Assembly (NCBI GenBank): GCA_021205245.1
Contig: JAJPXZ010000004.1
Span: 1-35,931 of the forward strand
Length of the DNA: 35,931 nucleotides
Direction: 5' to 3'
Origin: Planctomycetaceae bacterium
GTDB lineage: Bacteria > Planctomycetota > SZUA-567
The notes beneath the pieces were generated by a model. It did not search any database, was not told the origin of the DNA, and saw only the letters and a list, made by a program, of their open reading frames with translations. Below, piece after piece: positions 4,174 to 22,276 of the stretch (positions are counted from its first letter, which is position 1; each line of letters begins with the position of its first letter). The position numbers were made by a program, and so were the translations under genes.

Positions 4174-5181
4174 TTAGTTGTTCGGTTCAATAGCGATTTT
4201 AAAGCCGATGCCCCTGGTCGCGAGGTCGAGGGCTTCATTCGCTTCAGCAAGCGAAAAACGGTGGGTGACGAGGTCGCCTATGCCCAGGGTTGGCAGCATC
4301 TCGACAGCGCGGTAGTGGGTAAAAGGATTGATGGTCGAACCGAGAATGGTCAGTTCCTTCAGGAAAATCTGGTTCGGCTCAATCGACACCTTTTTGCCCG
4401 GAGGAGCGACGCCGAAGACGACAACATTCGCGCCCCGACCCGCCATCTCGATAGCCTGTTCGGTCACCGCCGGCACGCCCGAACATTCGATGACGACATC
4501 GGGACCAAGTCCGCCGGTCAGTTCCTTAAGGGTCTCGGGCAAATCTTTCGGATGCACCGCCCGGTCGGCTCCGAAAGCGAGACTGGCTTCGCGGCGCTCC
4601 TGACTCGGTTCAGAGATGACGATCCGCGCCGCACCGGCGCGGCGCGCCAGTTTGACGAACAACATACCCACCGAACTACAGCCAAGGATGGCGACGATAT
4701 CGCCTTGGCGAATGCCGGACCGGTCAATACCGCGAATGCAGCACGCCAGCACCTCGGTGAGGGCGGCTTCGTGCGGCTTCACGCCGGCGGGAACAGGGTA
4801 GACGGTGTTTTCGGGCACCACGACATACTGGGCAAAACCACCGTTGTAGTACGAGCCATAAGCGCGCTTATCGAGGCAAAGGTGCTCGCGGCCGGTCTTG
4901 CAAAACTTGCAGACGCGGCAATATTTGTGCGGCTCGACCGTCACCAGGTCGCCCAGCCGGGCGGCGGTGACGCCTTCGCCCAGCTTCGATATGATACCGG
5001 AGAATTCGTGCCCGAGGATAACCGGCGGGCGCGAGAAATACTCGCCAGCCACGATATGCACGTCGGTGCCGCAGATGGTGGCGCACTCGACCTTAATCTG
5101 CACCTCGCCCGGTCCCGGTTCGGGATTCGGGACTTCGCGGATGTCCAACAACTTCGTGCCGGTGTAGAATGCTCCCAGCAT
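4174..5181 (-). CDS. Zinc-dependent medium-chain alcohol/polyol dehydrogenase
   Basis: A 335-residue NAD(P)-dependent dehydrogenase of the sorbitol/threonine dehydrogenase branch, oxidising a secondary alcohol to a ketone. Catalytic zinc ligands are C37 and H58-E59 (CGTDVH and LGHEFSG). The structural zinc site is C88, C91, C94 and C102. The Rossmann segment GCSSVGMLFVKLARRAGA follows, then a GLGPDVVIECSGV segment. The frame extends upstream to 5268, but ATG 5181 is preceded by AAGGGG at a good distance and begins the family N-terminus MLGAFYTGTKLLDIREVP. It is the last gene of the minus-strand operon, 19 bases after the transaldolase-like gene. In context it probably oxidises, or reversibly reduces, an intermediate with a secondary hydroxyl; the substrate is unknown. 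Confidence 0.88.
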   Translation of the reverse strand: MLGAFYTGTKLLDIREVPNPEPGPGEVQIKVECATICGTDVHIVAGEYFSRPPVILGHEFSGIISKLGEGVTAARLGDLVTVEPHKYCRVCKFCKTGREHLCLDKRAYGSYYNGGFAQYVVVPENTVYPVPAGVKPHEAALTEVLACCIRGIDRSGIRQGDIVAILGCSSVGMLFVKLARRAGAARIVISEPSQERREASLAFGADRAVHPKDLPETLKELTGGLGPDVVIECSGVPAVTEQAIEMAGRGANVVVFGVAPPGKKVSIEPNQIFLKELTILGSTINPFTHYRAVEMLPTLGIGDLVTHRFSLAEANEALDLATRGIGFKIAIEPNN

Positions 5182-5200: not shown

Positions 5201-6253
5201 CTATGTCCAGCGGGTGGATTTGCGGGTGGAGCCGTATTCCTCAAGGAATGACCAGCCGGATTCGACAAACTGGCTCAGCACCTTCTGCACCCCGCCGTAG
5301 GTAATGAACTCCCGTTCCGACAAGCCGTCCGGCTCGTAGGCGCGGACAAACTCACCCACCCGGCTCAGCCTGTCGATAACGTCGGCCGGAATTGGCTCGT
5401 CTATACCGCATTCGCGCGGCAGGTCGGCTTCTATCGCCATCTGCTGGGTTCGGACGGGCAAGGTGAGGATAAAGTCGCCGCCCGCAACCTGGGCAATCTG
5501 CCGTGGGAAGCGGTATGCGCAGGGCATCATCACCGAGTTGAAGCCTTCCTTTTGGAAGATCGAATAAGTGCGCTTACACACTGCCAAGCCTGCCTGCTGG
5601 ATGTCGGACTCGCTCACGCCAGCCCTCATGTCCTTGGCGACGTCGCGGAGATAGTCGTCGAGGCGGCCCATCTGCTGGACGACGATGCAGAGGCCGGGCT
5701 TGACGCCGTTTTTAATCGCCTTCTCGCGGCCGCGTTCGTAGGCGCGCGCGGTCGCGAGGGCCTGCGAAACGGTGATGTTGACGCTGGCGCAGACCGGCAC
5801 GCCCTGCTCCGCCATTTTCTCCACCACCTCCATCCCCGCGCCCGTGGCGGCGAGCTTGACGCAGACGTTTTTGCCCCACGTCCTGACCCGTTCGGCCTGG
5901 GCGAGCATAGCTTCAGCGTCTCCGGCCTGCTTGGGATTGAGTTGGCCAAGCGCGTAGCCGAGTTTGCCGTTCGTCTTTTCGTAGATTGGCAGGCAACGCT
6001 CGGCAGCGTAGGTTGCGACCAGCTTCAAGAGCGCCTCGGCCCGGTCGTCCGGTTCCATATCGTCGCCGAGGGCGGCGACACGGGGATTCCAGAAGTCGGG
6101 GCGCGCTTTGAATGTGTTGGCGGTCAGGACCGGGTTGGTGGTGACGCCGGTTGCGCCGATGGCGAAGGCGGCGTCGATTTCATCCGGGCTGCCTGAGTCG
6201 TGCCACCACTGCGTCGGCGTCTCCTGCGCCAGCCATTCGAGGTAATTGGCCAT
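5201..6253 (-). CDS. Transaldolase-family protein (shorter paralogue)
   Basis: A 350-residue class I aldolase-fold protein. The family forms a Schiff base between a lysine and a ketose and cleaves or transfers a dihydroxyacetone-type unit. Here K133 in VCVKLAATGAG aligns with the lysine of classical transaldolase (K132 in E. coli TalB). Other family positions are visible: D in WWHDSGSPDEI near 19, TTNPVLT near 37-43, E in IYEKTNGKLGY near 91, the NIT-SQA segment near 158-164, and VQQMGRLDDYL near 193. The C-terminal half departs from ordinary transaldolase. RBS AAGGA precedes the ATG. It sits between the SDR and the alcohol dehydrogenase, and a second, longer relative is the first gene of the locus. 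Substrate unknown; a housekeeping pentose-phosphate role is unlikely given this operon. Confidence 0.82.
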   Translation of the reverse strand: MANYLEWLAQETPTQWWHDSGSPDEIDAAFAIGATGVTTNPVLTANTFKARPDFWNPRVAALGDDMEPDDRAEALLKLVATYAAERCLPIYEKTNGKLGYALGQLNPKQAGDAEAMLAQAERVRTWGKNVCVKLAATGAGMEVVEKMAEQGVPVCASVNITVSQALATARAYERGREKAIKNGVKPGLCIVVQQMGRLDDYLRDVAKDMRAGVSESDIQQAGLAVCKRTYSIFQKEGFNSVMMPCAYRFPRQIAQVAGGDFILTLPVRTQQMAIEADLPRECGIDEPIPADVIDRLSRVGEFVRAYEPDGLSEREFITYGGVQKVLSQFVESGWSFLEEYGSTRKSTRWT

Positions 6254-6277: not shown

Positions 6278-7021
6278 CTATGCGCGCATGTAGTAGCCGC
6301 CGTTGACGTCGATGGTCGCGCCGGTGACGTAGTCGGACAGGCTGGTGGCGAGGAAGAAGACAGCCTTGGCTGCATCGAGGGCGGTGCCGAGGCGCTTCAG
6401 CGGCACGATTTCCGGGTAGTTTTCGCGGTCCTTCGTCATATCGGTCAGCATAAAGCCGGGCGCGACGCAGTTGACATTGATTTGGTGTTCGGCGCAGTAC
6501 CGGGCATAGGCCTTGGTCAGGGCGATGATACCGCCCTTGGCTGCCGTGTAGTGGACACCGGCGAGGAAGCCGCCAAGCTGGCCGCCCTGCGACGACATAT
6601 TGATGATGCGACCGCCGCCGCCCTTGGTCATGAGGGGAATCGCGTGCTGGGAGCACAACTGTACGCCACGCAGGTTGATAGCCAGCATCCGGTCCCACTT
6701 CTCCACCGTCATTTCGGGGATGGAGGTGGGGTCGAGGATACCGGCGTTGTTGACCAGGATGTCAATCGTACCATTCAGCTTCGCCGCTTCGGCAAGCATG
6801 GCCTTGACCGAATCTTCCTTCGACACGTCGCAGGCGATCGCGACGGCGTCGAGGCCATCGGCGCGCATGGCGGCGGCGGTCTTTTCAGCGCCTTCGGCGT
6901 TGATGTCGGAAATAACCACCTTCGCGCCGACCTCGGCCATCATCTTGGCGCTCTCGTAGCCAATGCCCCTGGCGCTTCCCGTCACAACTGCAACCTTGCC
7001 GGTCAGATCAATGTATTTCAT
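6278..7021 (-). CDS. Short-chain dehydrogenase/reductase (FabG-like SDR)
   Basis: A 247-residue classical SDR. The nucleotide-binding motif is TGSARGIG (15-22), the adenine-pocket segment CDVSKED near 64, and NNAG near 92. The catalytic set is S in NMSSQGG, Y158 and K162 (YTAAK). The acidic residue after beta-2 (VISDINAEGAE) suggests NAD(H) preference. The family oxidises secondary alcohols or reduces ketones, and the fit to sugar-acid or polyol dehydrogenases is at least as good as to fatty-acid FabG. An RBS (GGAG) precedes the ATG. It lies between larA (20 bases) and the transaldolase-like gene (24 bases) in the same operon, so it probably handles the oxidised partner of the LarA substrate; that is inference. 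Confidence 0.9.
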   Translation of the reverse strand: MKYIDLTGKVAVVTGSARGIGYESAKMMAEVGAKVVISDINAEGAEKTAAAMRADGLDAVAIACDVSKEDSVKAMLAEAAKLNGTIDILVNNAGILDPTSIPEMTVEKWDRMLAINLRGVQLCSQHAIPLMTKGGGGRIINMSSQGGQLGGFLAGVHYTAAKGGIIALTKAYARYCAEHQINVNCVAPGFMLTDMTKDRENYPEIVPLKRLGTALDAAKAVFFLATSLSDYVTGATIDVNGGYYMRA

Positions 7022-7041: not shown

Positions 7042-8292
7042 TTATTTCACGCTCGGCAGCGTCGACCCGCCATACGGCATAACGATGATGCGTGCATCAT
7101 TGCCAAGCTTGGTCCTGGCGGCTGCCAAGGCGTCGTCAACGGTGGCGAAGGGCTTGAAGAAAATCGACTCCACAAAATCGGCAGCCATGTCGCTGACGAG
7201 ATAGACGTCGGCCCGCTCCAGAACCATGGCGATGGCGGCAGCCTTGTGGCCGCCGAGTTCGAAATTCTTCTGGATGTCGTCGATCATCTGGGCGCTGGTA
7301 CCCGCACCCACCATCCAGCGTTCGAACACGTCCTCCCCCAAACCCTCCTTGCACGATGCCACCAAGACCACCACGCCGCCGTCGCGGACGGCGTTCTTGG
7401 CGTTATCGAGCGCCTTTTGCGCCTGGTAGAGGTTGATGTCCTTGGGGAAGCCGCCGGACGAGACAAGCACGATATCGGCCGGGGCATCGATTTCGACCTT
7501 GTAGAGGGAGTCGAGGAACTTCGCTCCCGCCCGATGGGCTTGGATATAGTCGCCGGCGACGGCACAGACGATACGTTTCTTTTCGTCCAGCACCACGTTC
7601 AGGATAAAGTCGATGCCGACCATGGCCGCTGCCGCGTCGATGTCCTCCCGCACCGGGTTGCCATCGATTTGACCGGCGCGCGAGCCGTCCCGTACCATTT
7701 GCGAGTGATTGGCCTGGATGGAATCGCGCGAACACACGCCAGGCATAATCGCCTTGCCGCCACCGGAGTAACCGGCGAAATAATGGTATTCGATGTTGCC
7801 GAGGCAGATTCGGCGGTCGGCCTTGGCAACGGTTTCGAATACATCGACCGGTGTGCCGTTCTTTGCCGTCTTGCCCATGCGGACGATGTTGTCCGGGTCG
7901 GAGTCGGTACACTTCACCCGCTCGTAGACAGCGTCGCCGACGAGGGCGCGTTTTTCCTCCTCGGTGTGGCCCCGATGGATGCCGAGGCCGAAGACCACTT
8001 CGATGTCGTCGTCCTCCACGCCGGCCGCCGATAGCTCGTCGAGAATAAACGGCAGCACCACCTTGCTGGGCATGGGCCGGGTAATATCGGAGGTGACGAT
8101 AACCACCTTCTCGCCCGGCTTGGCGATTTCGCGGAGGCGCGGGCTGGCGATTGGGTTCATGAGCGCGTCGGCGACCAGCTTTTCCGGATCGCCCGACGTC
8201 TCCACCGGGTTCGGGGTGATGACAGCGGCGATTTTTGCGTCGTCCAGCGTCACACTCACCTTTTCCTTGCCGAGTCCAAGACTGATGTCCAT
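7042..8292 (-). CDS. larA: LarA-family nickel-pincer 2-hydroxyacid racemase/epimerase
   Basis: A 416-residue protein of the lactate racemase family, which inverts a 2-hydroxy-acid carbon by hydride transfer on a nickel-pincer nucleotide. Key positions match: SDITRP with D69 and R72, GIHRGH with H106, H170 in EYHYFAGYSGGGK, and K180 as the likely cofactor-tethering lysine (K184 in L. plantarum LarA). GGFPKDINLYQAQKA holds the later conserved lysine region. LarA homologues act on lactate, malate, phenyllactate and aldonates, so the substrate cannot be read from sequence. The frame extends to 8445, but ATG 8292 has a purine-rich RBS and lies one base after the sucD-like stop, giving tight coupling. 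The cofactor-making genes larB, larC and larE are not in the window. Confidence 0.88.
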   Translation of the reverse strand: MDISLGLGKEKVSVTLDDAKIAAVITPNPVETSGDPEKLVADALMNPIASPRLREIAKPGEKVVIVTSDITRPMPSKVVLPFILDELSAAGVEDDDIEVVFGLGIHRGHTEEEKRALVGDAVYERVKCTDSDPDNIVRMGKTAKNGTPVDVFETVAKADRRICLGNIEYHYFAGYSGGGKAIMPGVCSRDSIQANHSQMVRDGSRAGQIDGNPVREDIDAAAAMVGIDFILNVVLDEKKRIVCAVAGDYIQAHRAGAKFLDSLYKVEIDAPADIVLVSSGGFPKDINLYQAQKALDNAKNAVRDGGVVVLVASCKEGLGEDVFERWMVGAGTSAQMIDDIQKNFELGGHKAAAIAMVLERADVYLVSDMAADFVESIFFKPFATVDDALAAARTKLGNDARIIVMPYGGSTLPSVK

Positions 8293-8293
8293 C

Positions 8294-9166
8294 CTAAACC
8301 CCCAGCTTCTTGATGATCTCAACGATGTCGACCGTGCTCTCGGCGATGTGGACACCGGCTTCGCGAAGCACTTCTTCCTTCTTCTCGGCCGAGCCGCTGC
8401 CGTCGGCGCCGATGATGGCGCCGGCGTGGCCCATGCTCCTGCCACGGGGCGCGTTCTTGCCGGCGATGAGGGCGACGACCGGTTTCTTCACATTGTCCTT
8501 GATGTAAACAGCCGCGGTTTCTTCTTCGCCGCCGCCGATTTCACCGATGATAATGATGGCCTTGGTCTCGTCGTCCTTGTTCATGAGCGGGAGGATGTCG
8601 GCGAAGACCGAGCCGGGGATGGCGTCGCCGCCATTGCCGACGCAGGTGGATTGGCCAATGCCTTCCCGGCTGAGCATAAACACGGTCTCGTAACAATTGG
8701 TGGCGGACCGGGACATTATGCCCACGTTGCCGGGCGTAAAGATGCGGTGGGCCATAAAGCCCGCCTTCGCCTTGCCGGGCGAGATGATGCCGAACGAATT
8801 GGGGCCGATGACCCGACAGCGTTTCTTCAGGCTGGTGTGGTAGACGCCCATCATGTCCTGGACCGGCACGTGCTCGGCAATGGTCATGACAAGCGGCAGA
8901 TCCGCGTCCATGGCCTCGTAGGCGCTCTGCGCCGTGAACTTGGCCGGGACAAAGATAATCGACGCGTTCGCGCCGGTGGCTTCGACCGCTTCGCGGACCG
9001 TGTTGAACACCGGCACGCCGTGGACTTCCTGCCCGCCCTTGCCGGGCGTCACGCCCGCAACGACCTTGGTGCCGTATTCAAGCATCTGCTCTGTATGGAA
9101 CGAGCCTTCGCGCCCGGTAATGCCCTGGACGATGAGGCGGGTGTTTTGGTCGACAAGAATGCTCAC
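8294..9166 (-). CDS. Acyl-CoA synthetase (ADP/GDP-forming) alpha subunit, divergent SucD-like
   Basis: A 290-residue protein close in length and layout to succinyl-CoA synthetase alpha. The N-terminal CoA-binding part MSILVDQNTRLIVQGITG and GVTPGKGG are normal, and the phosphorylated histidine is H247 in GHAGAII. Several active-site motifs differ from canonical SucD: GPNSFG in place of GPNCPG, SRSATNCYETV in place of SRSGTLTYEAV, and GNGGDAI in place of GIGGDPI. The family couples acid + CoA + NTP to acyl-CoA + NDP + Pi through phosphohistidine. With these changes and the operon context, a hydroxy- or otherwise substituted acid is more likely than succinate; this is inference. It overlaps the beta gene by 4 bases. 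A malate-CoA ligase is one alternative. Confidence 0.85.
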   Translation of the reverse strand: MSILVDQNTRLIVQGITGREGSFHTEQMLEYGTKVVAGVTPGKGGQEVHGVPVFNTVREAVEATGANASIIFVPAKFTAQSAYEAMDADLPLVMTIAEHVPVQDMMGVYHTSLKKRCRVIGPNSFGIISPGKAKAGFMAHRIFTPGNVGIMSRSATNCYETVFMLSREGIGQSTCVGNGGDAIPGSVFADILPLMNKDDETKAIIIIGEIGGGEEETAAVYIKDNVKKPVVALIAGKNAPRGRSMGHAGAIIGADGSGSAEKKEEVLREAGVHIAESTVDIVEIIKKLGV

Positions 9167-10308
9167 AGCGTCGCCCTCCTTTCCTTGATAGCGTCAACTC
9201 CTTCATAAAGCCCGTCGGCGAAGACCACATTCGCCTTGCCGATGGACTCGAGGACGGCGATGCCTTTTTCCTTGTTGGTGCCTTCGAAGCGGATGACCAC
9301 CAGCTTGTCCGAACCGTACTCGTCGATAAAGCCTTTAACGCCGGCGGCGATTTCGTCGCAGCGGGTGATGCCGCCGAAAATGTTGATGAACAACGCCTTG
9401 GTTTTGGGTTCCGACAGACAGATGCGGATGGCTTCCTTCACCCGGTCGCCGGTCGCGCCGCCGCCGAGGTCGAGGGCGGCGACCGTCTTCATGCCGTTTT
9501 TGCTGAGGACGTCGATGCAGGACATAATCATGCCGGACCCGTTGGAAATGACCGCGACCTCGCCCTCGGGATCGCAGGGGATGAAGAGGAAGCGGAACTT
9601 GCGCGCCTCAAGAATAAGTGGATGCGATTCCATTTCGTCGCGGAGTTCGATCAGTTCGGGATGACGGTACAAAGCGGCGTCATCGACCGTGACCTTGGCG
9701 TCAAGGGCCTGAAGTTCGCCCGCCGGGGTGACGGCGAGGGGATTGATTTCGCACAGCAGGCAGTCGCCTTCCCGGAACAGGGTGTAGAGCTTGTCCAGCA
9801 TGTCGGCGAGCTGGGTGGTATAGGACGCGTCGATGCCGCTCTTACTGACCAGGTACGTCGCCACATAGGCGCGAATCCCGACAATGGGGTCGATATTGAC
9901 GCGGATGATCTTGTCCGGATCGGTCTTGGCCGTTTCTTCGATGTCCACGCCGCCGACAGAAGAGAAGATGACCACCGGGCATTTTTTGACCCGGTCGAGG
10001 GCAATGGCCAGATACCATTCCGACGCAACCTCGACCTGACGGGTAACGAGGAGGCGTTTGACCAGGTGGCCCTTGATGTCCATCCCGAGGATAGCCTTGC
10101 AGGCCGCTTCGAGTTCGGTTTTATTCTTCGCCGGTTTGATGCCGCCGGCCTTGCCACGGCCGCCTATTTGCACCTGGGCCTTGACCATGCAAGGGTATTC
10201 GACCTCCAGCCCATCCAGGTCCGAGAGGGAATTAACGACAAATCCCCGTGGCCCGGCGATGCGGTACAGGTCGAAATACTCCTTTGCCTTGTATTCCATT
10301 AAATCCAT
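9163..10308 (-). CDS. Acyl-CoA synthetase beta subunit, divergent SucC-like
   Basis: A 381-residue ATP-grasp protein with SucC layout: MDLMEYKAKEYFDLY at the start, VKAQVQIGGRGKAGG near 43, EINPLAVTPAGEL near 195, a GGGATGDRVKEA power-helix region near 288 and NIFGGITRCDEIA near 318. Deviations lie in the CoA/acid-binding domain: SNGSGMIMSCID replaces the usual NGAGLAMGTMD, LDLGGGA replaces LDVGGGA, and the preceding ARKFRFLFIPCDPEGEVAV differs from the housekeeping form. The RBS GGAGGA precedes the ATG. It is the first gene of the second half of the locus, behind a 130-base leader with palindromes, and forms a heteromer with the overlapping alpha subunit. A typical TCA role is unlikely in this operon. 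Confidence 0.85.
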   Translation of the reverse strand: MDLMEYKAKEYFDLYRIAGPRGFVVNSLSDLDGLEVEYPCMVKAQVQIGGRGKAGGIKPAKNKTELEAACKAILGMDIKGHLVKRLLVTRQVEVASEWYLAIALDRVKKCPVVIFSSVGGVDIEETAKTDPDKIIRVNIDPIVGIRAYVATYLVSKSGIDASYTTQLADMLDKLYTLFREGDCLLCEINPLAVTPAGELQALDAKVTVDDAALYRHPELIELRDEMESHPLILEARKFRFLFIPCDPEGEVAVISNGSGMIMSCIDVLSKNGMKTVAALDLGGGATGDRVKEAIRICLSEPKTKALFINIFGGITRCDEIAAGVKGFIDEYGSDKLVVIRFEGTNKEKGIAVLESIGKANVVFADGLYEGVDAIKERRATL

Positions 10309-10441: not shown

Positions 10442-10474
10442 ACAAAAGGCCGCGCCCGCGTGAACGGGCGCGGC
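10442..10474 (-). terminator. Rho-independent terminator after gntR
   Basis: A perfect 10-bp GC stem (GCCGCGCCCG at 10449-10458 paired with CGGGCGCGGC at 10465-10474, 6-base loop) is followed on the minus strand by CTTTTGT. It lies just past the gntR stop and divides the locus into a transport/regulator unit and an enzyme unit. Confidence 0.85.
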
Positions 10475-10480
10475 GGATTC

Positions 10481-11206
10481 CTACTGTGCCGTGCCCCGGC
10501 CGGAGATGAACTTCGTCCGGTCGATGGCGCGTTTGATGTGGGCGTGCATGATGCGTTCCGCCTCGGTACCGTCGCCTTCCTCGATGGCGTCGTACATCTT
10601 CTGGTGTTCCGCTATGATGTCGGCGGCATGGACATGGGCGTTGGCAACCGCTATGGACGACCCGAGCGCCTCGGCGAAAGCGCCGAGAATACCGATAAGG
10701 ATGCTGTTGCCGGCCGATTCGGCGATAGCGCCGTGAAAGCGGATATCGCCGCGCTGACCGCGCTCGCCCAGGGTGATTTCGTCACGCATCGATTCGATGG
10801 CGTGGCGCATTTCACGAAGCTGGGACTGGGTGCGCTTTTTCGCCGCCACCCGCGCGGCGTATGGTTCCAGCAGCACCCGCACCTCGTACATTTCGAGGAC
10901 GCGGCGCTCGTCGGGGACGCCGCCGGTAACGCGCAGAATCGCCTCGTCGATGCCGCTCGATTTGATATATGTGCCTTCGCCGACCTTCGATTCGATAAGG
11001 CCGACCAATTCCATCGCCCGCAGCGCTTCGCGGACCGAAGTCCGGCTGACGCCCAGTTGCTCCACCAGTTCGCGCTCGGTGGGCAGCTTGTCGCCGGCGC
11101 GAAGCTCGCCGTCTTCTATTTTCTTTTTAAACAACTCGACGATGTCTTCGTATAACCGCGTCTTTTTCTTCAGCGGATGCATCGTCATTTTCGAGTGGGT
11201 CGTCAT
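10481..11206 (-). CDS. FadR-family (GntR/FCD) transcriptional regulator
   Basis: A 241-residue DNA-binding regulator. An N-terminal winged helix-turn-helix (about 15-80) reads LYEDIVELFKKKIEDGEL, then LPTERELVEQLGVSRTSVREALR and EGTYI, typical of GntR. The C-terminal all-helical FCD domain carries the metal/effector set D-x-x-x-H in DIRFHGAIAE, H in AEHQKMYDAI, and H in MHAHIKRAI. FCD regulators usually bind small carboxylates or sugar acids and repress the genes that degrade them. ATG 11206 is chosen over an upstream ATG at 11233 because GAGAGGAA lies just before it. It lies between dctM and the enzyme operon and most likely controls both promoters; a GGT-N3-ACC site lies by the first promoter. 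Confidence 0.9.
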   Translation of the reverse strand: MTTHSKMTMHPLKKKTRLYEDIVELFKKKIEDGELRAGDKLPTERELVEQLGVSRTSVREALRAMELVGLIESKVGEGTYIKSSGIDEAILRVTGGVPDERRVLEMYEVRVLLEPYAARVAAKKRTQSQLREMRHAIESMRDEITLGERGQRGDIRFHGAIAESAGNSILIGILGAFAEALGSSIAVANAHVHAADIIAEHQKMYDAIEEGDGTEAERIMHAHIKRAIDRTKFISGRGTAQ

Positions 11207-11218
11207 GAGTGTTCCTCT

Positions 11219-11248
11219 CCCGGCCATACCCATGCGGGTACGGCCGGG
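11219..11248 (-). promoter_or_regulatory. Long GC-rich inverted repeat between dctM and gntR
   Basis: CCCGGCCATACCC and GGGTACGGCCGGG pair over 13 positions with one mismatch around a 4-base loop (ATGC). It fills the gap between the dctM stop and the gntR RBS, and there is no T-tract. It may stabilise the dctPQM message, limit read-through into gntR, or act as an operator. Confidence 0.5.
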
Positions 11249-11263
11249 CGGCAGGAATTGCCT

Positions 11264-12547
11264 CTAGCGGGTCAGATACTGCGGAATCCACAACGAAAGG
11301 CCCGGGACATAGGTAATGAACAGCAGCACGATGATCATCACAAAAAGCGGAAGCAATATAGATTTACATATTTCTTCCAGCGATATCTTTCCGATACCGG
11401 CGGCGACGAACAGGTTCACGCCGAGTGGCGGGGTGATAAAGCCGATGGCCAGATTGACAATCATAACGATGCCGAAGTGAATCGGGTCGACGCCCACCGC
11501 CTTGACGACCGGCAGGAGAATCGGCGCCAGGATAAGAATAGCCGCCAGCGTCTCCATAAAGCAGCCGACAATCAGCAGGAGCACGTTGATCATCAGGAGA
11601 ATATAGATCTGGCTGTCGGTCATGGAGGTGATGAAGTTGGCGACCGTGGTCGGCACCTGCAGCATGGTCAGGATTCGGCCGAAGATAGCGGCGGTCCCCA
11701 TGATAATCATCGCCGTGGCGGTGGTGAGGCCGGCCTGGCAGAAGATGTCGTAGAGGTCGCGGAACTTGATGTCTCGATAGACAAACAGTCCAACGACAAT
11801 GCCGTAGATAACGGCGACGGCCGCGGCTTCGGTGGGGGTGAAGATACCGCCGTAGATGCCGCCAAGAATGATGAAAGGCACGAGGAGCGACCATTTGGCT
11901 TCCCAGGCGATGCGGAGCTTTTGGCCTGTGGTGAAGACTTCACGTTCGCCGCCGTACCCATTCTTTTTCGAAATGAAATAATTCATGGTCATCAAGGCGA
12001 CCCCGATTATGATGCCGGGGATAATGCCTGCCATGAACATACTGCTGATCGACGCCCCGACCGCGACCGAATACACCACCATCGGAATGCTGGGCGGGAT
12101 AATAACGCCGATAGACCCGGACGCCGCGACGATGGCGGTCGAGTACCCTTTTGAATAACCCTTCTCAATCATGGACGGGATCATCAGGGAGCCGATTGCC
12201 GCAACGGTGGCGGGGCCGGAGCCGGAGATGGCGGCGAAGAACATGCACGCTGCCACCGTCACCAGGCCGAGACCGCCGGTGAAGTTGCCGAAGAAAGCCC
12301 TGGCAGTCCCGAGGAGACGTTGCGAGATACCGCCCCGGCCCATGATTTCGCCGGCGAGGATAAAGAACGGAACCGCCATCAGCGGGAACGAGTCGATAGC
12401 GGTCACCAAGCTCTGGGTGAGGTGGGTGTACTGCATCCTCGGGCTTAGGTGGATGGCGACAACCGAAGCGAGACCAAGCGACACGCCGATGGGGACGTTG
12501 ATGACAAGAAACACGACGAAGGACAGGAACAGTGCTGTGGTTACCAT
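11264..12547 (-). CDS. dctM: TRAP transporter large permease (DctM)
   Basis: A 427-residue, highly hydrophobic inner-membrane protein, the ion-coupled channel subunit of a TRAP transporter. Family signs include ALFLSFVVFLVINVPIGVSLGLAS at the start, SFPLMAVPFFILAGEIMGRGGIS near 52, SGSGPATVAAIGSLMIPSMIEKGY near 109, GVIIPPSIPMVVY near 148, and GFITPPLGVNLFVAAGI near 370. It works with DctQ in the membrane and DctP in the periplasm to import an organic acid using a sodium gradient. It starts 2 bases after the dctQ stop. The TRAP type, together with the FCD regulator and LarA, points to a hydroxy-acid or sugar-acid substrate. Confidence 0.95.
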   Translation of the reverse strand: MVTTALFLSFVVFLVINVPIGVSLGLASVVAIHLSPRMQYTHLTQSLVTAIDSFPLMAVPFFILAGEIMGRGGISQRLLGTARAFFGNFTGGLGLVTVAACMFFAAISGSGPATVAAIGSLMIPSMIEKGYSKGYSTAIVAASGSIGVIIPPSIPMVVYSVAVGASISSMFMAGIIPGIIIGVALMTMNYFISKKNGYGGEREVFTTGQKLRIAWEAKWSLLVPFIILGGIYGGIFTPTEAAAVAVIYGIVVGLFVYRDIKFRDLYDIFCQAGLTTATAMIIMGTAAIFGRILTMLQVPTTVANFITSMTDSQIYILLMINVLLLIVGCFMETLAAILILAPILLPVVKAVGVDPIHFGIVMIVNLAIGFITPPLGVNLFVAAGIGKISLEEICKSILLPLFVMIIVLLFITYVPGLSLWIPQYLTR

Positions 12548-12549
12548 GG

Positions 12550-13044
12550 CTATTCCCCTCCTTCCGTGGTCGAGGCGAGTTCCTTGACCGAGTGATAAAG
12601 ATTCTGCAGCAGACGAATCGCGACGAGAATAAAGCAGAACGGCAAGGTGCCGTACACATAGCCCATGCGGATTTCCAGCGCGGGCGAGGTCTGGTTCAGC
12701 CGGAAGATGCGTCCGGCGGTAACAAAGCCGTAATAGATAATGAAGAGGGCGAACGCCAAGAAGAGAATGTCCGAGACAAGCTTGATGATAGCTTGCTTAC
12801 GCGGCGACAGCCACATGGTGAATGCTTCAACCCGGACGTGGCGCTTCATCTTGACGCCGTAACTAATGCCGGCATAGACGAAGAAGATGAACAGGTAGCG
12901 GGCCAACTCCTCCGACCAGGACAGGGAGGCTTGCACCACATAGCGCATAAAGACTTGCAAACCGATGGAAATGGTCATCACGCCGAGACAGGCGACGATG
13001 ATGATTTCCTCGATACGTTTGTTAAGGAATTGCAATACTTTCAC
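12550..13044 (-). CDS. dctQ: TRAP transporter small permease (DctQ)
   Basis: A 164-residue membrane protein with four predicted helices: IIIVACLGVMTISIGLQVFMR, LARYLFIFFVYAGISYGV, LVSDILFLAFALFIIYYGF and MGYVYGTLPFCFILVAIRLL. The segment LSWSEELARYLFIF is a family hallmark. It pairs with DctM in the inner membrane. The start is GTG 13044, with AAGGGGGTGTAGA upstream; the longer frame to 13089 would begin inside the dctP-dctQ hairpin. It is separated from dctP by 84 bases holding a strong hairpin and touches dctM, so dctQM form a coupled pair. Confidence 0.93.
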   Translation of the reverse strand: MKVLQFLNKRIEEIIIVACLGVMTISIGLQVFMRYVVQASLSWSEELARYLFIFFVYAGISYGVKMKRHVRVEAFTMWLSPRKQAIIKLVSDILFLAFALFIIYYGFVTAGRIFRLNQTSPALEIRMGYVYGTLPFCFILVAIRLLQNLYHSVKELASTTEGGE

Positions 13045-13128: not shown

Positions 13129-14097
13129 CTAATTAAGGAACGCGTCCATGATTTTGTCGTTCTTCACTTCTTCACGGACCATGTCGTAAACCGGTCCCAT
13201 CTTGTCGCGGAAAAGTTTACGCTGTTCGGGGGTCAGGTCGATAATTTCGATACCGCCCTTGATGGCTTCGATGGACTTTTCTTCGTTGGCCCGGGCAACG
13301 CCGCGCTGGAAGTCGATGGAGTCCTTGGCGGCCTTGTTGACGATGGCCTGCTGTTCGGGGGTGAGGTCGTTGTAGAACTCGAGGTTCATGAAGATCGGCA
13401 TCGGGGTATAGATGTGGTTGGTGGTCATGACGTAGTTCTGCACTTCGTAGAACTTGTTGGTGTAGATGAGTTCAAACGGGTTTTCCTGGGCGTCGACGGT
13501 GCGCTGCTGCAGGGCGGTGAAGAGTTCGCCGAACGAGACCGGGGTCGGGTTCGCGCCGAGGGTGCGCCAGGTGGCCATCTGAATTTTGTTTTCCATAACG
13601 CGGAGCTTGATGCCGGCCAGGTCTTCGGGCTTCAGGATCGGCTTGTTGGCGGTGAGCTGACGAAAGCCGTTTTCGGTATAGCCGAGGCCCTTCAGGTTGA
13701 TCTTTTCCATGGCGGCGAGGAGCATCTTGCCGGGTTCGCCGTCGAGGGTGGCGTACGCTTCCTCGCGGGTGGCGAACATGAAGGGGGCGTCAAGGACGTA
13801 GAACTCGCTGGCAAAGCCCGCGATGGGGGAGCCGGAGGAGTGTCCGACCTGGACGTTGCCGAGCTGGCAGCCTTCGACAACTTCGCGGTCGCCGCCGAGC
13901 TGCTGGTTCGGGAAGATTTCGACTTCCATGGTGCCGTTCGATTCGGCCTCGATCACTTCCTTGAACTTGAGCCAGCCTTCATGGCTCGAGTGGTCCTCGG
14001 TCGCGCCATGGGCGACGGTGATATGGACATCGGCCGCGTAGGCGGCGCAACCAAGCGTGAAAAGGCACACAATAGCGAGTAGCGCGGATTTCTTCAT
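13129..14097 (-). CDS. dctP: TRAP transporter periplasmic substrate-binding protein (DctP)
   Basis: A 322-residue exported binding protein. The start MKKSALLAIVCLFTLGCAAYA is a signal peptide with probable cleavage after AYA (about residue 21). The mature protein begins ADVHITVAHGATEDHSSHEGW and has the family segments GTMEVEIFPNQQLGGDREVVEGCQLGNVQ, LKPEDLAGIKLRVMEN (the arginine here usually contacts the substrate carboxylate), VSFGELFTALQQRTVDAQENP and PEQQAIVNKAAKDS. ATG 14097 has a strong AGGAGA site; the frame extends to 14262 but that part lacks a signal. The arginine implies a carboxylate-containing ligand; its identity is unknown. It lies 94 bases after the long transaldolase-like gene. 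Confidence 0.94.
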   Translation of the reverse strand: MKKSALLAIVCLFTLGCAAYAADVHITVAHGATEDHSSHEGWLKFKEVIEAESNGTMEVEIFPNQQLGGDREVVEGCQLGNVQVGHSSGSPIAGFASEFYVLDAPFMFATREEAYATLDGEPGKMLLAAMEKINLKGLGYTENGFRQLTANKPILKPEDLAGIKLRVMENKIQMATWRTLGANPTPVSFGELFTALQQRTVDAQENPFELIYTNKFYEVQNYVMTTNHIYTPMPIFMNLEFYNDLTPEQQAIVNKAAKDSIDFQRGVARANEEKSIEAIKGGIEIIDLTPEQRKLFRDKMGPVYDMVREEVKNDKIMDAFLN

Positions 14098-14191: not shown

Positions 14192-15556
14192 TTAAGCAAG
14201 GCTCTTTTCGATATCGGTATAGGCTTCGGTAAATACCTTCGACACGGCCTGGAGCGGAACAAAGTCGTGGACGCTGTCCATGTCCAGCTTGTCGCGGTTG
14301 TAGGCCTTGACGAAGATGGTCGACTTGTTCAGGACTTCCATGACGTCGGCGGGAGTGCTGTCTTCCATCTCCGACTTGAGGGCGCGCGGCTCCTGATCGA
14401 ATTCCTTGATCTTTTCGGTCATGGTGGTGAAGACGACCGGCGCGTCGGCGTGGTCGGTGAGGCAGGCTTCGATGGTGTAGGGTCCGCGAATGGCGGCGGC
14501 CATGATGGTCGCCTTGTCAAGGCCCTTGGCGCGCAGGTTGGCGTAGGATTTCCGCAGCACCGAGACGCCGGCCCATTTGGAGTACTGCTTGGGATTTTCG
14601 ATACCCATCGCTTCCAGTTCCTTCGCGACGTTATCGTCCAGGAAGCCGGCCATGATGACGACAAAGCCCTTCTTTTCGCCCTTCTGGATGATTTCGGCGA
14701 AGATCTCGTGCTGGCTGACCGAGAAGTTTAGGGTCATGCAGATGCGGATACCCTTGGCGACCAGCGCTTCGGCAGCCTTCACCGCGCCCTTGACGGCGGG
14801 CAGCTTGTAGACCACGTTGATGGGTTGATACCCGAGTTCCTTGACATACGCTTCCTGCCAATAGAGGACTTCATCCACCATCTTCTGGTCGTCGTCGGGT
14901 CCGATGTTTTTCGGGTTGGTCTGGACGCAGACAAAACCGTACTGACCGTCCGTCGCGTCATAGATGGGCTTGAGGACGCGGGCGTTGATGGCGGTGACCT
15001 TGACGAACATGGCGGAAATGATTTTCTCAACCGACGCGCCGGGATTCTCGGCCTTGGCTTCGCCCAGGAGCTTGGCCCAGATTTCCGCGTTTTCCTTGCG
15101 GAAGAGGTTAATTTTGGCCGGATTGGAGGTCACGAATCGCGCACCGCGACGGAGCGAGTGATCCATGCCGGTGCAGTAGTCGTGGCCCCAGAAGTCGAAC
15201 AGCTTGCCTTCGCGGGTGTGCTGGCACATCTTCATGGTCTGGCTCGCGGCGATGGATTCCTTCTCCGCCGTGTAGGCCGCAACAATGTCAGCGGCACCAT
15301 TGGCCTTGACCACCTCTTCGAAGCGCGCCTGCATGGCGGCGACGGCGTCTTTTCCGACCAAGTCTTCCAGCACCCATACGGACAGGTAGGAACCGAGGTC
15401 GAGGGCGAGGTCGGCGGCAAGTTGAACAGCGGCAGTCTTGTCGGACTGGGTGGCGGCGTTAATCTCGTAGAGGACCGCATCAGCCGCTTTGGTGAAATCA
15501 CTGGCGGTGGCGGGGAAGAGAACAGCATTTCTCGCGTCATTGAGGGAGCGAAGCAT
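14192..15556 (-). CDS. Transaldolase-family protein, long divergent paralogue
   Basis: A 454-residue protein, about 100 residues longer than typical transaldolases. An N-terminal extension of about 145 residues precedes RRGARFVTSNPAKINLF, which corresponds to the TTNP motif. K251 in INVVYKLPAVKGAVKAAEAL is the likely Schiff-base lysine, followed by GIRICMTLNFSVSQHEIFAEI, which aligns with the N-T-S segment, and VVIMAGFLDD in place of the usual GR-D strand. The C-terminal part (YTIEACLTDHADAPVVFTTM) is unlike common transaldolases. ATG 15556 follows TAGGAG; upstream in-frame ATGs lie in the leader. It is the first gene behind the best promoter of the locus. It may be an aldolase for an unphosphorylated or unusual sugar, but that is inference. 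Confidence 0.75.
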   Translation of the reverse strand: MLRSLNDARNAVLFPATASDFTKAADAVLYEINAATQSDKTAAVQLAADLALDLGSYLSVWVLEDLVGKDAVAAMQARFEEVVKANGAADIVAAYTAEKESIAASQTMKMCQHTREGKLFDFWGHDYCTGMDHSLRRGARFVTSNPAKINLFRKENAEIWAKLLGEAKAENPGASVEKIISAMFVKVTAINARVLKPIYDATDGQYGFVCVQTNPKNIGPDDDQKMVDEVLYWQEAYVKELGYQPINVVYKLPAVKGAVKAAEALVAKGIRICMTLNFSVSQHEIFAEIIQKGEKKGFVVIMAGFLDDNVAKELEAMGIENPKQYSKWAGVSVLRKSYANLRAKGLDKATIMAAAIRGPYTIEACLTDHADAPVVFTTMTEKIKEFDQEPRALKSEMEDSTPADVMEVLNKSTIFVKAYNRDKLDMDSVHDFVPLQAVSKVFTEAYTDIEKSLA

Positions 15557-15647: not shown

Positions 15648-15764
15648 AGCAACGGGGTGGAGCCGGTCCGACAGCAAAAGAGTGGGAGCGGCTCGTAGGG
15701 ATTATTTTACGTTAGCGGAATAGGAAGGCGTCAAGCCTACAATGCAGCGAAGCATATGATCTGT

Positions 15765-15775
15765 TGGTCATACCT
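15765..15775. promoter_or_regulatory. Candidate FadR-type operator at the locus promoter
   Basis: TGGTCATACCT contains GGT-CAT-ACC, an inverted repeat of the GGT-Nx-ACC form known for FadR-subfamily GntR regulators. It lies just downstream of the -10 element, where a repressor would block initiation. The locus encodes exactly such a regulator at 10481-11206. Confidence 0.5.
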
Positions 15776-15777
15776 TC

Positions 15778-15806
15778 ATACTATACTATCAACCAGGCTT
15801 TGTCAA
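15778..15806 (-). promoter_or_regulatory. Strong sigma-70-like promoter of the catabolic locus
   Basis: On the minus strand, TTGACA (15801-15806) and TAGTAT (15778-15783) are 17 bases apart. Transcription from here leaves a leader of about 210 bases before the first ATG. The gap 15557-15970 also holds an AT-rich inverted repeat at 15846-15867. It lies within a stretch noticeably richer in A+T than its surroundings, and I see no gene in it. Confidence 0.7.
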
Positions 15807-16480: not shown

Positions 16481-16566
16481 TGCGTATCCCTTTGCCTTTT
16501 TCGGCCGCATCCATTAAATAGCAGAGTGGAATGGAGAGAAACGTTATTCTCGGCAAGGAGGGTGGT

Positions 16567-17376
16567 ATGGCAACGCGGAAGTTGCTGTCGTGCGAGGTCA
16601 TGCGGGACGAAGTGGAATGGCTGCTTGGCCAAACCGGTCTCCGGGACAGCATTGAGGTTGAATTCCTCGAAATGGGCCTGCATCAGCGGCCCGAACGTCT
16701 CAAAGCCGAGCTGGAGCGGCGCATCACCGCGTGCGAAGGGCTGGGATACGACGCCATCATGCTGATGTTTGGCCTGTGCAGCAATGCTGTAACGGGGCTG
16801 AGGGCTCCGGCCGACAGCCGCTTGGTGTTGCCCCGCGTCCACGACTGCATTTCGGTCTATCTCGGTTCGACGCGTCGCTACATGACCGAACACGCGGCCG
16901 AGCCTGGCACCTACTGGTTCAGCCGAGGCTTTCTCCACCGGTCCGACGGCGTCGCCTGGGAGGACGGCGGGCTGGGCGCCGATTTCGGCGGCGTGGATGA
17001 GGACGGCCAGCGTTTATCCGTCCCCGAACTTCGCGCCCGCTATATCGAGGAATACGGCGAAGACAATGCGGATTATCTGATTGAGGTGTTGGTCGACTCG
17101 TGGAAGGCGAATTACAAACGCGCCGTCTATCTTGAATGGAGCGACTATCCGGGACGGGCCGAAGACCGCGACACGGTGCAGCGGCACGCCGACAAGAGCG
17201 GGTGGGAATTCTACTCGATGCCGGTGGATTTGCGCCTGCTGGAGGGCCTTCTTGCCGGTCGCTGGTCGCCGGAGGAATACATGGTGGTCGGGCCGGGCGA
17301 ACGGTTGATCGCCAGCAATGACGAACAAATTTTCTCCGTCGTGCATAACGGCGGACACACGACCGAAAAGGAGTGA
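16567..17376 (+). CDS. DUF1638 domain protein
   Basis: A 269-residue cytosolic protein. The start MATRKLLSCEVMRDEVEWLL, then EFLEMGLHQRPERLKAELERRI, AIMLMFGLCSNAVTGLRA, LVLPRVHDCISVYLGS and GTYWFSRGFL, match the DUF1638 family. DUF1638 proteins are uncharacterised. Conserved cysteines at C9 and in GLCSN (near 75) and the H-D-C of VHDC suggest a bound metal or a thiol-based active site. ATG 16567 has a near-perfect AGGAGG; an ATG at 16531 would add twelve residues without an RBS. Its stop almost touches the nitroreductase gene, so the two are probably co-translated. Some DUF1638 genes occur near corrinoid methyltransferase genes; nothing of that kind is adjacent here. Confidence 0.85.
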   Translation: MATRKLLSCEVMRDEVEWLLGQTGLRDSIEVEFLEMGLHQRPERLKAELERRITACEGLGYDAIMLMFGLCSNAVTGLRAPADSRLVLPRVHDCISVYLGSTRRYMTEHAAEPGTYWFSRGFLHRSDGVAWEDGGLGADFGGVDEDGQRLSVPELRARYIEEYGEDNADYLIEVLVDSWKANYKRAVYLEWSDYPGRAEDRDTVQRHADKSGWEFYSMPVDLRLLEGLLAGRWSPEEYMVVGPGERLIASNDEQIFSVVHNGGHTTEKE

Positions 17377-17378
17377 CA

Positions 17379-17924
17379 ATGGAACTGAAACAATGCGTAG
17401 AAGGGCGGCGCAGCATCCGCAAATTCACAGACGAGGCGGTAAGTGACGAATTGCTGAAGAAGATCGTCGATGTCGCCACGCTCGCGCCAAGCTGGAAAAA
17501 CTCGCAGACGACCCGCTACATCGCCATTTCCAGCGAAGCGGTAAAAAAGGAATTGGCCGAAAAGTGCGTCCTGGGATTCGAGTTTAATAAAAAGTCCATC
17601 CTGGCCGCGCCGACGGTGATCCTGGTCACCACCGTCTCCCCGCGTTCCGGCTTCGAGCGGGATGGCTCGCCGTCGACAAGCAAGGGCACGCATTGGGAAA
17701 GCTTCGACGCCGGCATCGCCACACAAACCTTGTGCCTCGCGGCGTATGCGGAAGGACTGGGGACGGTGATTCTCGGAGTCTTCGACGAAGCGAAGGTAAT
17801 CGAAACAGCCAAGGTTCCGGAAGGGCAGAAGGTCTCGGCGATAATCGCCATCGGCCACCCGGACGAAGCGCCCGCAATGCCCAAACGCAAAAGCAGCGAC
17901 GAAATTCTCAGCATTGTGAAATAG
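17379..17924 (+). CDS. Nitroreductase-family flavoprotein
   Basis: A 181-residue FMN-dependent oxidoreductase-fold protein. The FMN-phosphate motif is GRRSIRKFTDEAVS near the N-terminus, followed by LAPSWKNSQTTRYIAI (the S and N-S-Q contact flavin) and AGIATQTLCLAAYAEGLGTVILGVFDE near 107-133. The C-terminal part ends IIAIGHPDEAPAMPKRKSSDEILSIV, as usual for the family. It may use NAD(P)H to reduce quinones, nitro compounds or enones; the natural substrate is unknown. ATG 17379 has AAGGAG at 5 bases and is preferred to an overlapping GTG at 17373. It follows the DUF1638 gene directly. Confidence 0.92.
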   Translation: MELKQCVEGRRSIRKFTDEAVSDELLKKIVDVATLAPSWKNSQTTRYIAISSEAVKKELAEKCVLGFEFNKKSILAAPTVILVTTVSPRSGFERDGSPSTSKGTHWESFDAGIATQTLCLAAYAEGLGTVILGVFDEAKVIETAKVPEGQKVSAIIAIGHPDEAPAMPKRKSSDEILSIVK

Positions 17925-21096: not shown

Positions 21097-21171
21097 TGGC
21101 ATCCCCTAGGGGACTCGAACCCCTGTTCTCAGACTGAGAATCTGATGTGCTGACCGCTGCACTAAGGGGAC
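21097..21171 (-). tRNA. tRNA-Glu (anticodon CUC)
   Basis: A 75-base cloverleaf with encoded CCA. The acceptor stem is GTCCCCT with AGGGGAT (one G-U at the end pair). The D stem is GTGC/GCAC. The anticodon stem TCAGA/TCTGA carries loop TTCTCAG (anticodon CTC, reading GAG), and the T stem AGGGG/CCCCT carries TTCGAGT. It is single, with its own terminator. Confidence 0.95.
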
Positions 21172-21238: not shown

Positions 21239-22276
21239 ATGCCGAATCGACCCATTTTGTCAATGCCGAAACAGAACGACGCCGCCGTTTTCCAGGACCA
21301 TTACGCCTCCATGACCAGACCCCACTTTGCCCCCGGTTCCACCGTGACCATGACGGTCAAGAATCGCTCCGGAAAACAGCCCTTGGCCCAATATCTCGCC
21401 GCCCGCCTTGGCGTCGTCGAACCCTGGGCGCTCGACCTTCTCGGGAACGGCCATATCAAACTGAACGGCGCGACCGTCAGAACTGACGACTGCATCAACC
21501 TCTCCGACGGACCGCACGAATTGGAGATCCATTTTCCCATCGCCTGGCCCAGGCACATGGCCGCGACCGAAATGCCGCTGGACATACTGTACGAAGACGA
21601 GGATCTCGTCGTCCTGAACAAGGCGGCCGGTATCGTCGTCCACCCCGCGCGCGGCCACCTCAACAATCAAACGCTGCAAAACGGCATGCGCTACCGCTAC
21701 CGCCACCTCCTGGCCAGCGAGGCCACCACCATCGGCTCGCCGCACCGGCTCGACAAAGATACATCCGGTGCCATTGTTTTTGCCCTCAACCGTGCCGCCT
21801 ACACCCATTTGGTGAACCAGTTCAGCGCCGCCACACCCCACAAACGCTACCTCGCCGTGCTGGACGGTACCGTCGACTTAGATGAATACTCGTGTCTCTC
21901 GCCCATCGGTCCCGACCCGGAGCGAAAAGGCGTCGGCACCATCGTCCCGGTGGAAGCCGGCGGCAAAACCGCACGCAGCGATTTCCGCATTCTCGACCAT
22001 GGCGACGGCTGGACCCTCGCGGAAGTCACGCCCCACACCGGCAGGCCGCACCAGATTCGCGTCCATGCCGCCAGCCTGGGTGTTCCCCTGGCGGGCGACC
22101 GCGATTACAACCCGTCGCCGGATCGCCTCGGCTTTTCCCGCCAGGCGCTCCACGCCGTATCCCTCGCCTTCGACCACCCGACCAGCGGCTCCCGGCTCGA
22201 AATCCACGCACCCTTGGCGGATGATATGGCGGCAGGTCTCGCCCGGTTAAGGGAGGCTCACCCATGCCTGGACTGA
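21239..22276 (+). CDS. RluD-type pseudouridine synthase
   Basis: A protein of up to 345 residues that isomerises uridine to pseudouridine in RNA, most likely rRNA. Residues about 48-95 (LAQYLAARLGVVEPWALDLLGNGHIKLNG) look like an S4 RNA-binding domain. LDILYEDEDLVVLNKAAGIVVHPA (near 115-138) starts the catalytic domain. The active-site motif is HRLDKDTSG (near 168), whose first aspartate is catalytic. TPHTGRPHQIRVHAASLGVPLAGDRDY (near 262-288) is the usual C-terminal signature. The start is uncertain: ATG 21239 has a poor RBS, and later in-frame ATGs at 21263 and 21311 are possible. It overlaps the AddB-like gene by 13 bases, so the three genes 21239-28514 form one operon. Confidence 0.92.
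   Translation: MPNRPILSMPKQNDAAVFQDHYASMTRPHFAPGSTVTMTVKNRSGKQPLAQYLAARLGVVEPWALDLLGNGHIKLNGATVRTDDCINLSDGPHELEIHFPIAWPRHMAATEMPLDILYEDEDLVVLNKAAGIVVHPARGHLNNQTLQNGMRYRYRHLLASEATTIGSPHRLDKDTSGAIVFALNRAAYTHLVNQFSAATPHKRYLAVLDGTVDLDEYSCLSPIGPDPERKGVGTIVPVEAGGKTARSDFRILDHGDGWTLAEVTPHTGRPHQIRVHAASLGVPLAGDRDYNPSPDRLGFSRQALHAVSLAFDHPTSGSRLEIHAPLADDMAAGLARLREAHPCLD

Follow-up and report, generated by a model that had tools for sequence, protein, structure and literature searches.

Gene content and conservation of the locus

The window, meaning the whole stretch of 35,931 nucleotides analyzed here, comes from the genome of a Planctomycetaceae bacterium (G000; contig JAJPXZ010000004.1). Its minus strand carries a run of 11 genes in the order TAL1, DctP, DctQ, DctM, GntR/FCD, SucC-like, SucD-like, LarA, SDR, TAL2, and Zn-ADH; TAL1 is the first gene of this same-strand run, as the first-pass annotation had claimed. 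The genes and the regulatory elements that accompany them are as follows.

15778..15806, minus strand: promoter-like site TTGACA-17-TAGTAT (10/12), overlapping the conserved 40-base run
15754..15793, minus strand: 40-base run identical in genome G197, found by comparison with G197, containing the palindrome GGT-ATG-ACC
14192..15556, minus strand: TAL1, transaldolase-like, 454 aa (open reading frame and PF00923)
13129..14097, minus strand: DctP, TRAP substrate-binding protein
12550..13044, minus strand: DctQ, TRAP small permease, start set by comparison with locus L045 of G197
11264..12547, minus strand: DctM, TRAP large permease
10481..11233, minus strand: GntR/FCD regulator
10449..10474, minus strand: terminator-like hairpin between GntR and SucC
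9163..10308, minus strand: SucC-like CoA-ligase beta subunit, GIT replacing GIV
8294..9166, minus strand: SucD-like CoA-ligase alpha subunit, RSATNCYE replacing RSGTLTYE
7042..8292, minus strand: LarA-type nickel racemase, LarAH6 over cut-off, GHK motif
6278..7021, minus strand: short-chain dehydrogenase (SDR)
5201..6253, minus strand: TAL2, transaldolase-like, 350 aa, Arg197 at the R181 place (37-row alignment)
4174..5181, minus strand: zinc alcohol dehydrogenase (Zn-ADH)

The earlier call of a gene at 14192-15556 holds insofar as the frame is intact and encodes 454 aa, but its strand had to be corrected to minus, as the plus frame contains a stop. The start codon is supported by the corresponding open frame in G197, which begins just 8 codons upstream, and by a GGAG that precedes the window's ATG by 7 nt. 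The promoter-like site upstream of TAL1 is the best in its region, and 241 of 320 upstream positions are identical between the window and G197, the 40-base run included. The palindrome in this run is operator-like, of a kind typical of GntR regulators, and may be bound by such a regulator; because TGGTNNNACC as a bare pattern occurs in the window no less often than expected by chance, this operator reading rests on conservation. The terminator-like hairpin after GntR is a strong one, and a second lies 3' of Zn-ADH. As a class such sites are not above chance (14 found versus 11.9 expected), and the hairpin at 10449..10474 may split the run, giving one or two transcripts.

Elsewhere in the window, positions 16531-17924 of the plus strand hold an unassigned 281-aa gene, which also lies near TAL1 in G197 (L045, 8861-9679), and then a nitroreductase-like gene; the two are directed away from the locus. 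Rfam detects a tRNA gene at 21100-21171 on the minus strand (62.9 bits), and two adjacent very long frames of 978 and 1105 aa occupy 22264-28514 on the plus strand.

TAL1 is carried by three MAGs, all of one genus. A full-length 454-aa copy, 91% identical, is present in G197 (a Planctomycetaceae MAG), and G286 (a Planctomycetota MAG) retains the C-terminal 47 aa of a 70% identical copy, the rest being lost at a contig end. Between the window and G197, TAL1 as a whole has a dN/dS of 0.103, with 0.056 over residues 121-454 and 0.22 over residues 1-103, indicating that both the barrel and the N-terminal domain described below are under purifying selection; a 91% copy with a dN/dS of 0.10, together with the G286 fragment, argues that the open reading frame is not a chance one. 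In a search of 294 genomes of the phylum and 18 of the order, the best full-length match after the G197 copy scores 71.5 bits at 27% identity. No TAL1 locus was found in viral contigs, a plasmid search yielded 17 records of which none (0/17) covers 80% of the query, and a contig search of small reach, using patterns from the C-terminal 47 aa alone, returned the two known copies and no others.

The gene order of the G197 locus is identical to that of the window, with DctP, SucD, and TAL2 each split into two matches, as frame breaks would produce. One G286 contig carries the end of TAL1, a sugar-binding-type protein, DctPQM, GntR, a CoA-acylating aldehyde dehydrogenase, SucCD, LarA, and a cut SDR, and another opens with an SDR end (95% identity over 38 residues) followed by TAL2 and Zn-ADH. 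On this second contig (L073, 2515-5894; G286:C279), TAL2 and Zn-ADH are followed by a further TRAP system unlike the first (DctP 25%) and by part of another SDR. The tie of TAL1 to LarA and TRAP genes, which the first-pass annotation had proposed to look for, is thus seen in three genomes. LarAH6 exceeds its cut-off in three of eight genomes, exactly those that carry TAL1, and these three also encode the ligase beta subunit, at 65-100% identity over at least 377 residues; G298 holds a ligase beta as a 142-residue contig-end fragment, and G000 also has a 36% relative elsewhere. Neither the window nor G197 has the CoA-acylating dehydrogenase within the locus; G000 and G197 carry other copies, set among different genes. 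The acylating-dehydrogenase model NF047625 matches everywhere and is over cut-off nowhere.

Two further loci resemble parts of this set. The SDR/transaldolase-like/Zn-ADH trio recurs at a second locus in G286 (L067, 5354-8325; G286:C143), where the transaldolase-like protein is 52% identical to TAL2. Locus L097, on a contig without TAL1 (G298:C74), encodes between 104 and 6706, in this order, a CoA-acylating aldehyde dehydrogenase, acetoin-dehydrogenase-like E1a/E1b/E2/E3, and the SucC fragment of G298, 59% identical to the SucC of the window; with the acetoin-dehydrogenase-like genes called by eye, it may represent a related acyl-CoA pathway.

Fold and lineage of TAL1

We modeled TAL1 with AlphaFold from an alignment of four sequences (TAL1 itself, its copy from G197, the fragment from G286, and TAL2), obtaining a mean pLDDT of 69 and a pTM of 0.62. 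In the model, a helical domain (residues 5-103) precedes eight strands in barrel order (121-125, 141-143, 208-210, 248-250, 272-276, 297-302, 351-355, and 374-379). All 38 Foldseek matches at E<=0.001 are transaldolase-family entries, the best being 3r5e (E 7.8e-8), and VIA aligns 317 residues within model range 104-454 (Z 23.9, rmsd 3.5). The same C. glutamicum transaldolase, 3r5e, is also the nearest PDB sequence (E 1.2e-7). By this moderate-confidence model, TAL1 has a beta/alpha barrel of the transaldolase type, and the lysine singled out by the first-pass annotation, Lys251, falls within it, directly after the predicted fourth strand (248-250). The chain divides into two parts:

15248..15556, minus strand: N-terminal all-helical domain, residues 1-103 (model, dN/dS, phylum search)
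14195..15247, minus strand: transaldolase/FSA barrel with its leading helix, residues 104-454 (Pfam, model, Foldseek, VIA)

The N-terminal extension had previously been put at 145 residues, a count that ran up to the TSNP motif. We place its length at about 103 instead: the model helices end at 103 and structural matches to transaldolases begin at 100-108. Modeled alone, residues 1-118 form a predicted six-helix array (pLDDT 83.6). Foldseek finds nothing under E 1.2 for this domain, and the best VIA match (Z 9.8, to designed repeats) is within the chance range for helical bundles; the predicted domain therefore has no confident fold relative, and we do not claim a new fold. Of 392 phylum genomes, it appears in two, the window's own and G197, the start of the G286 gene being unassembled at the contig end.

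Pfam assigns residues 140-449 to PF00923 (TAL_FSA; E 3.5e-19, 69.7 bits versus a cut-off of 27). The scores for the characterized subfamilies all fall far short: 49.7 bits for PRK03343, the best NCBIfam score (cut-off 367), 39.1 for tal_mycobact (233.75), 19.5 for talAB (396.2), and 16.4 for fsa_talC_mipB (245.95). These equivalog cut-offs, Gln212 for Glu96, and Phe305 for Arg181 speak against a classical transaldolase (EC 2.2.1.2). Against an FSA, TAL1 is under that cut-off, is 454 rather than ~220 aa long, and matches Gln59 but has Met302 for Tyr131. As to a sulfofructose transaldolase, TAL1 has Phe305 and Gln212 where W138 and E61 are given in PMC11659671, a comparison by published residue positions. 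TAL1 is a divergent member of the transaldolase/FSA superfamily, outside every characterized subfamily tested.

Trees were built from 37 rows, a set from which L017, L021, and L031 (broken reading) had been dropped, with bifunctional rows trimmed to 400 residues; close kin L036, L037, L039, and L043 and loci L027 and L028 are absent from them. TAL1 and its copy form a separate clade, supported at 100/100, on a stem of ~2.8-3.0 changes per column; a well-supported clade of its own, tied to LarA/TRAP genes, was what the first-pass annotation had named as a sign of a new function. With TalB and FSA included, the pair (stem 2.8) joins a 12-row set with TAL2 at 97/92, separated at 96/94 from TalB, FSA, and the plant-type transaldolases. 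Without TalB and two FSAs (34 rows; stem 3.0), the TAL1-TAL2 grouping drops to 87/81. In AU tests on 34 rows, neither a placement of the TAL1 clade with Ile-type rows (p 0.343) nor a plant-type grouping (p 0.174) was rejected. A sure place for TAL1 in the TAL2 group was consequently not sustained. TAL1 falls outside the classical equivalog families, but in the tree it may still join the plant-type transaldolases. The clade on its long stem is a separate lineage.

Active site of TAL1

To compare active sites, we used a 37-row table with TalB and FsaA as anchors, read in two alignments. Three codons are referred to below:

14921..14923, minus strand: Gln212 (TalB Glu96 / FSA Gln59 place; 37-row alignment)
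14804..14806, minus strand: Lys251, Schiff-base lysine (TalB K132, FSA K85; 37-row alignment)
14642..14644, minus strand: Phe305 (TalB Arg181 / FSA Arg134 phosphate place; alignment, with the role of R181 from PMC3962226)

Both motifs reported earlier are present: both alignments match K251, within VVYKLPA, to TalB K132, and TSNP spans residues 143-146. Retained in TAL1 are Asn145 and Thr275, at the places of TalB Asn35 and Thr156, along with Lys251 and Arg357. The TalB D17 column holds Asp126 in one alignment and His125 in the other. The first-pass statement that other conserved residues are replaced is true, but only one replacement is peculiar to TAL1. In the TalB Glu96 column, all 21 non-classical rows and FsaA have Gln and the remaining 15 Glu, and at the TalB Phe178/FSA Tyr131 place, where TAL1 has Met302, the 21 non-classical rows carry Met, Gln, or Ile. 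We therefore rejected Gln212 and Met302 as unique to TAL1. The Arg181 column, by contrast, reads Arg in 32 of the 37 rows and Ile in three from planctomycetes, Phe305 being confined to TAL1 and its copy. The Ile rows (L005, L015, and L024) also have Asn in the D17 column and constitute another changed-site lineage; its member in the window's genome precedes a methionine sulfoxide reductase-like gene, as judged by eye.

With Tyr131 replaced by Met302 and Glu96 by Gln212, neither known proton relay is complete in TAL1. On the donor side, Cys273 and Val300 replace TalB Asn154 and Ser176 and are less polar, so the donor may not be dihydroxyacetone. On the acceptor side, Phe305 and Ala355 occupy the places of FSA Arg134 and Ser166. 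R134X variants of FSA accept broader acceptors, and Arg134/Ser166 variants have been used for other acceptors, according to PMC13259622; the R134V/S166G structure 7qxf is among the VIA matches of the TAL1 model. TalB R181 is a tested phosphate contact whose variants gain affinity for unphosphorylated D-glyceraldehyde (PMC3962226), and on this basis a changed acceptor specificity is likely in TAL1. Our literature search on E96Q and on transaldolase subfamilies found no paper.

Set against known enzymes, TAL1 has in common with TalB and the plant and mycobacterial transaldolases (3r5e, 3clm) the barrel, the Schiff-base lysine, and the Asn35 and Thr156 places, but differs in Gln for Glu96, Met for Phe178, Phe for Arg181, and the added helical domain of ~103 residues, with ~15-20% identity in structural alignments. 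E. coli FsaA resembles it in the Gln at place 59, the lysine, the Asn and Thr, and, in one of the two alignments, the Asp; TAL1 is twice as long, lacks Tyr131, and has Phe for Arg134. A further group is made up of unnamed Gln-type members of the family (TAL2, other Planctomycetota proteins, and proteins from Clavibacter and Shinella plasmids), which like TAL1 have Gln at E96, Met, Gln, or Ile at F178, and catabolic gene surroundings. They differ from it in lacking the N-terminal domain, in that most retain the phosphate arginine, and in their low identity to TAL1 (19-31%). All six PF00923 genes over cut-off in G000, TAL1 included, are of the Gln type, and six per genome seems many. On two Shinella plasmids (L050, 8809-10029, and L051), a Gln-type protein lies inside an acetoin-dehydrogenase-type E1a/E1b/E2/E3 operon that also holds phosphoglycolate phosphatase and triose-phosphate isomerase.

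Candidate pathway and alternative readings

TRAP systems carry acids, and the third best PDB match of DctP is an isethionate receptor. LarA scores 574.6 bits against NF052593 (LarAH6 malate racemase; cut-off 500), and PMC7583248 associates its GHK motif with malate or a near relative. In the ligase, the catalytic histidine region and the tyrosine are conserved, but GIT stands for GIV, RSATNCYE for RSGTLTYE, GPNSFG for GPNCPG, and GNGGD for GIGGD. The window and G286 have these changes in common, and E. coli SucCD has none of them; roles for the tyrosine and the GIV motif are described in PMC11489063. The other ligase pair in the window's genome (GIL, RSGTLTYE) looks canonical, and two plasmid malate-CoA ligases (GIN, RSGTLGYE) are unlike both the window ligase and SucCD. 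The GIT and RSATNCYE changes speak against a canonical succinyl-CoA ligase (8294-10308), although PRK00696 (beta) and both alpha models were passed and TIGR01016 was just missed; a PRK14046 score of 266.8 bits versus 604, and GIT versus GIN, speak against a malate-CoA ligase (9163-10308).

With these neighbors in mind, we tentatively favor, at slightly short of an even chance, a reading in which TAL1, a class I aldolase/transaldolase, cuts an acidic ketose that bears no phosphate, and the aldehyde half is then oxidized via acyl-CoA with a gain of ATP. The loss of the phosphate-gripping residue is what makes an unphosphorylated acidic sugar the probable substrate. The TRAP carrier would import the acid, which TAL1, working in the aldolase direction, would split; TAL2 perhaps acts on a related or epimeric substrate. 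Lys251 would hold the three-carbon donor half, with Asp126, Asn145, Gln212, and Thr275 completing the usual site, and the acceptor pocket would present Phe305 where Arg181/Arg134 of relatives grip phosphate, the second arginine, Arg357, being kept. The helical N-terminal domain would probably serve assembly or partner binding. The acid-bearing aldehyde would then be oxidized to a CoA ester, a step for which only the G286 locus holds a CoA-acylating dehydrogenase; the remodeled SucCD-type ligase would free the acid with ATP gain, and LarA would racemize the released 2-hydroxy acid. TAL1 would then take the first step of an unstudied breakdown pathway, and it may be the key step with a new aldolase specificity that the first-pass annotation had supposed.

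A precedent that counts for this reading is the E. gilvus sulfofructose transaldolase locus (PMC11489063), in which an acylating dehydrogenase accompanies a SucCD-type, ATP-forming ligase, a pair that was assayed there for a sulfonate. Counting against it are the thin four-sequence model, the incomplete proton relays, the less polar donor side, and the D17 ambiguity, as well as the dehydrogenase missing from the window and G197 loci, the GntR-SucC hairpin, the tree placement, and the restriction to three MAGs of one genus.

The same precedent speaks for a sulfonate pathway, in which TAL1 would cut a sulfo-ketose (e.g., 6-deoxy-6-sulfofructose) to sulfolactaldehyde, which would pass through sulfolactyl-CoA to sulfolactate with ATP and be racemized by LarA. 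The isethionate receptor match of DctP points the same way, sulfolactate is malate-like and would suit LarA, and the SauS model gives 413.8 bits on the G286 dehydrogenase, though under its cut-off of 600. Like TAL1, sulfofructose transaldolases (SqvA, BmSF-TAL) have an aromatic residue for the phosphate arginine, Trp138 (S133+5) in the B. megaterium enzyme (Borusak et al., PMC11659671). That enzyme pairs the Trp with Glu61 on a small FSA-type chain, where TAL1 has Phe and Gln212, and the ligase here has Tyr and Thr rather than the His160 and Asn312 reported for HpfYZ in PMC11489063. No sulfoquinovose genes were seen beside TAL1, and no sulfoquinovosidase exceeded its cut-off in eight genomes, with the E. 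coli control likewise under it. Given a ligase without the HpfYZ signature and a TAL1 without the Glu and Trp, we treat the sulfonate pathway as a rival, and an improbable one, rather than as the lead. Neutral substrates seem to us similarly improbable: TAL1 and TAL2 would cut unphosphorylated ketoses to dihydroxyacetone and glyceraldehyde, the ligase would yield glycerate, and LarA would racemize it. A sugar-binding-type periplasmic protein does adjoin TAL1 in G286, but the carrier is a TRAP system, of an acid-taking kind. The D-glyceraldehyde affinity of R181-changed TalB (PMC3962226) would suit such a route; LarA passing a malate-type model, with a GHK motif tied to malate or a close relative (PMC7583248), would not.

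Two readings that deny TAL1 a new reaction strike us as very unlikely. A drifted, ordinary pentose-phosphate transaldolase would share the fold and lysine, and the plant-type grouping (AU p 0.174) leaves room for it; set against this are scores far under all transaldolase equivalog cut-offs, the loss of both the phosphate arginine and Glu96, neighbors that form an acid catabolic set, and five other PF00923 genes over cut-off in the genome. That TAL1 might be catalytically dead, a structural or regulatory partner bound to TAL2 via the helical domain, is suggested by two TAL genes in one locus, the added domain, and the incomplete known proton relay, but is at odds with strong purifying selection on the barrel (0.056) and with the retention of the lysine, Asn, Gln, and Thr.

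Returning to the acidic-ketose reading, its fullest form is doubtful as a whole: the locus would be an undescribed ATP-yielding pathway for a carboxy- or sulfo-ketose, with TAL1 a natural aldolase whose phosphate pocket is rebuilt as engineers do in FSA and TalB and which bears a new helical assembly domain, and the product would exit as a malate-shaped 2-hydroxy acid via the ligase and the nickel-pincer racemase. Our literature search found no paper combining a transaldolase, LarA, and a TRAP transporter. What we describe is a conserved, unexplained catabolic locus of one planctomycete genus. Transaldolase-type enzymes are workhorses of sugar synthesis, and much engineering aims at phosphate independence; if the reading is true, an enzyme that became phosphate-independent in nature, complete with an additional domain and a defined set of genes, would offer an engineering template. 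Gln-type relatives occur in several phyla and in catabolic clusters, where they are met as unnamed proteins, and one characterized member would help to read many loci. For the organisms themselves, the reading, if true, would name a substrate class on which some Planctomycetota live.
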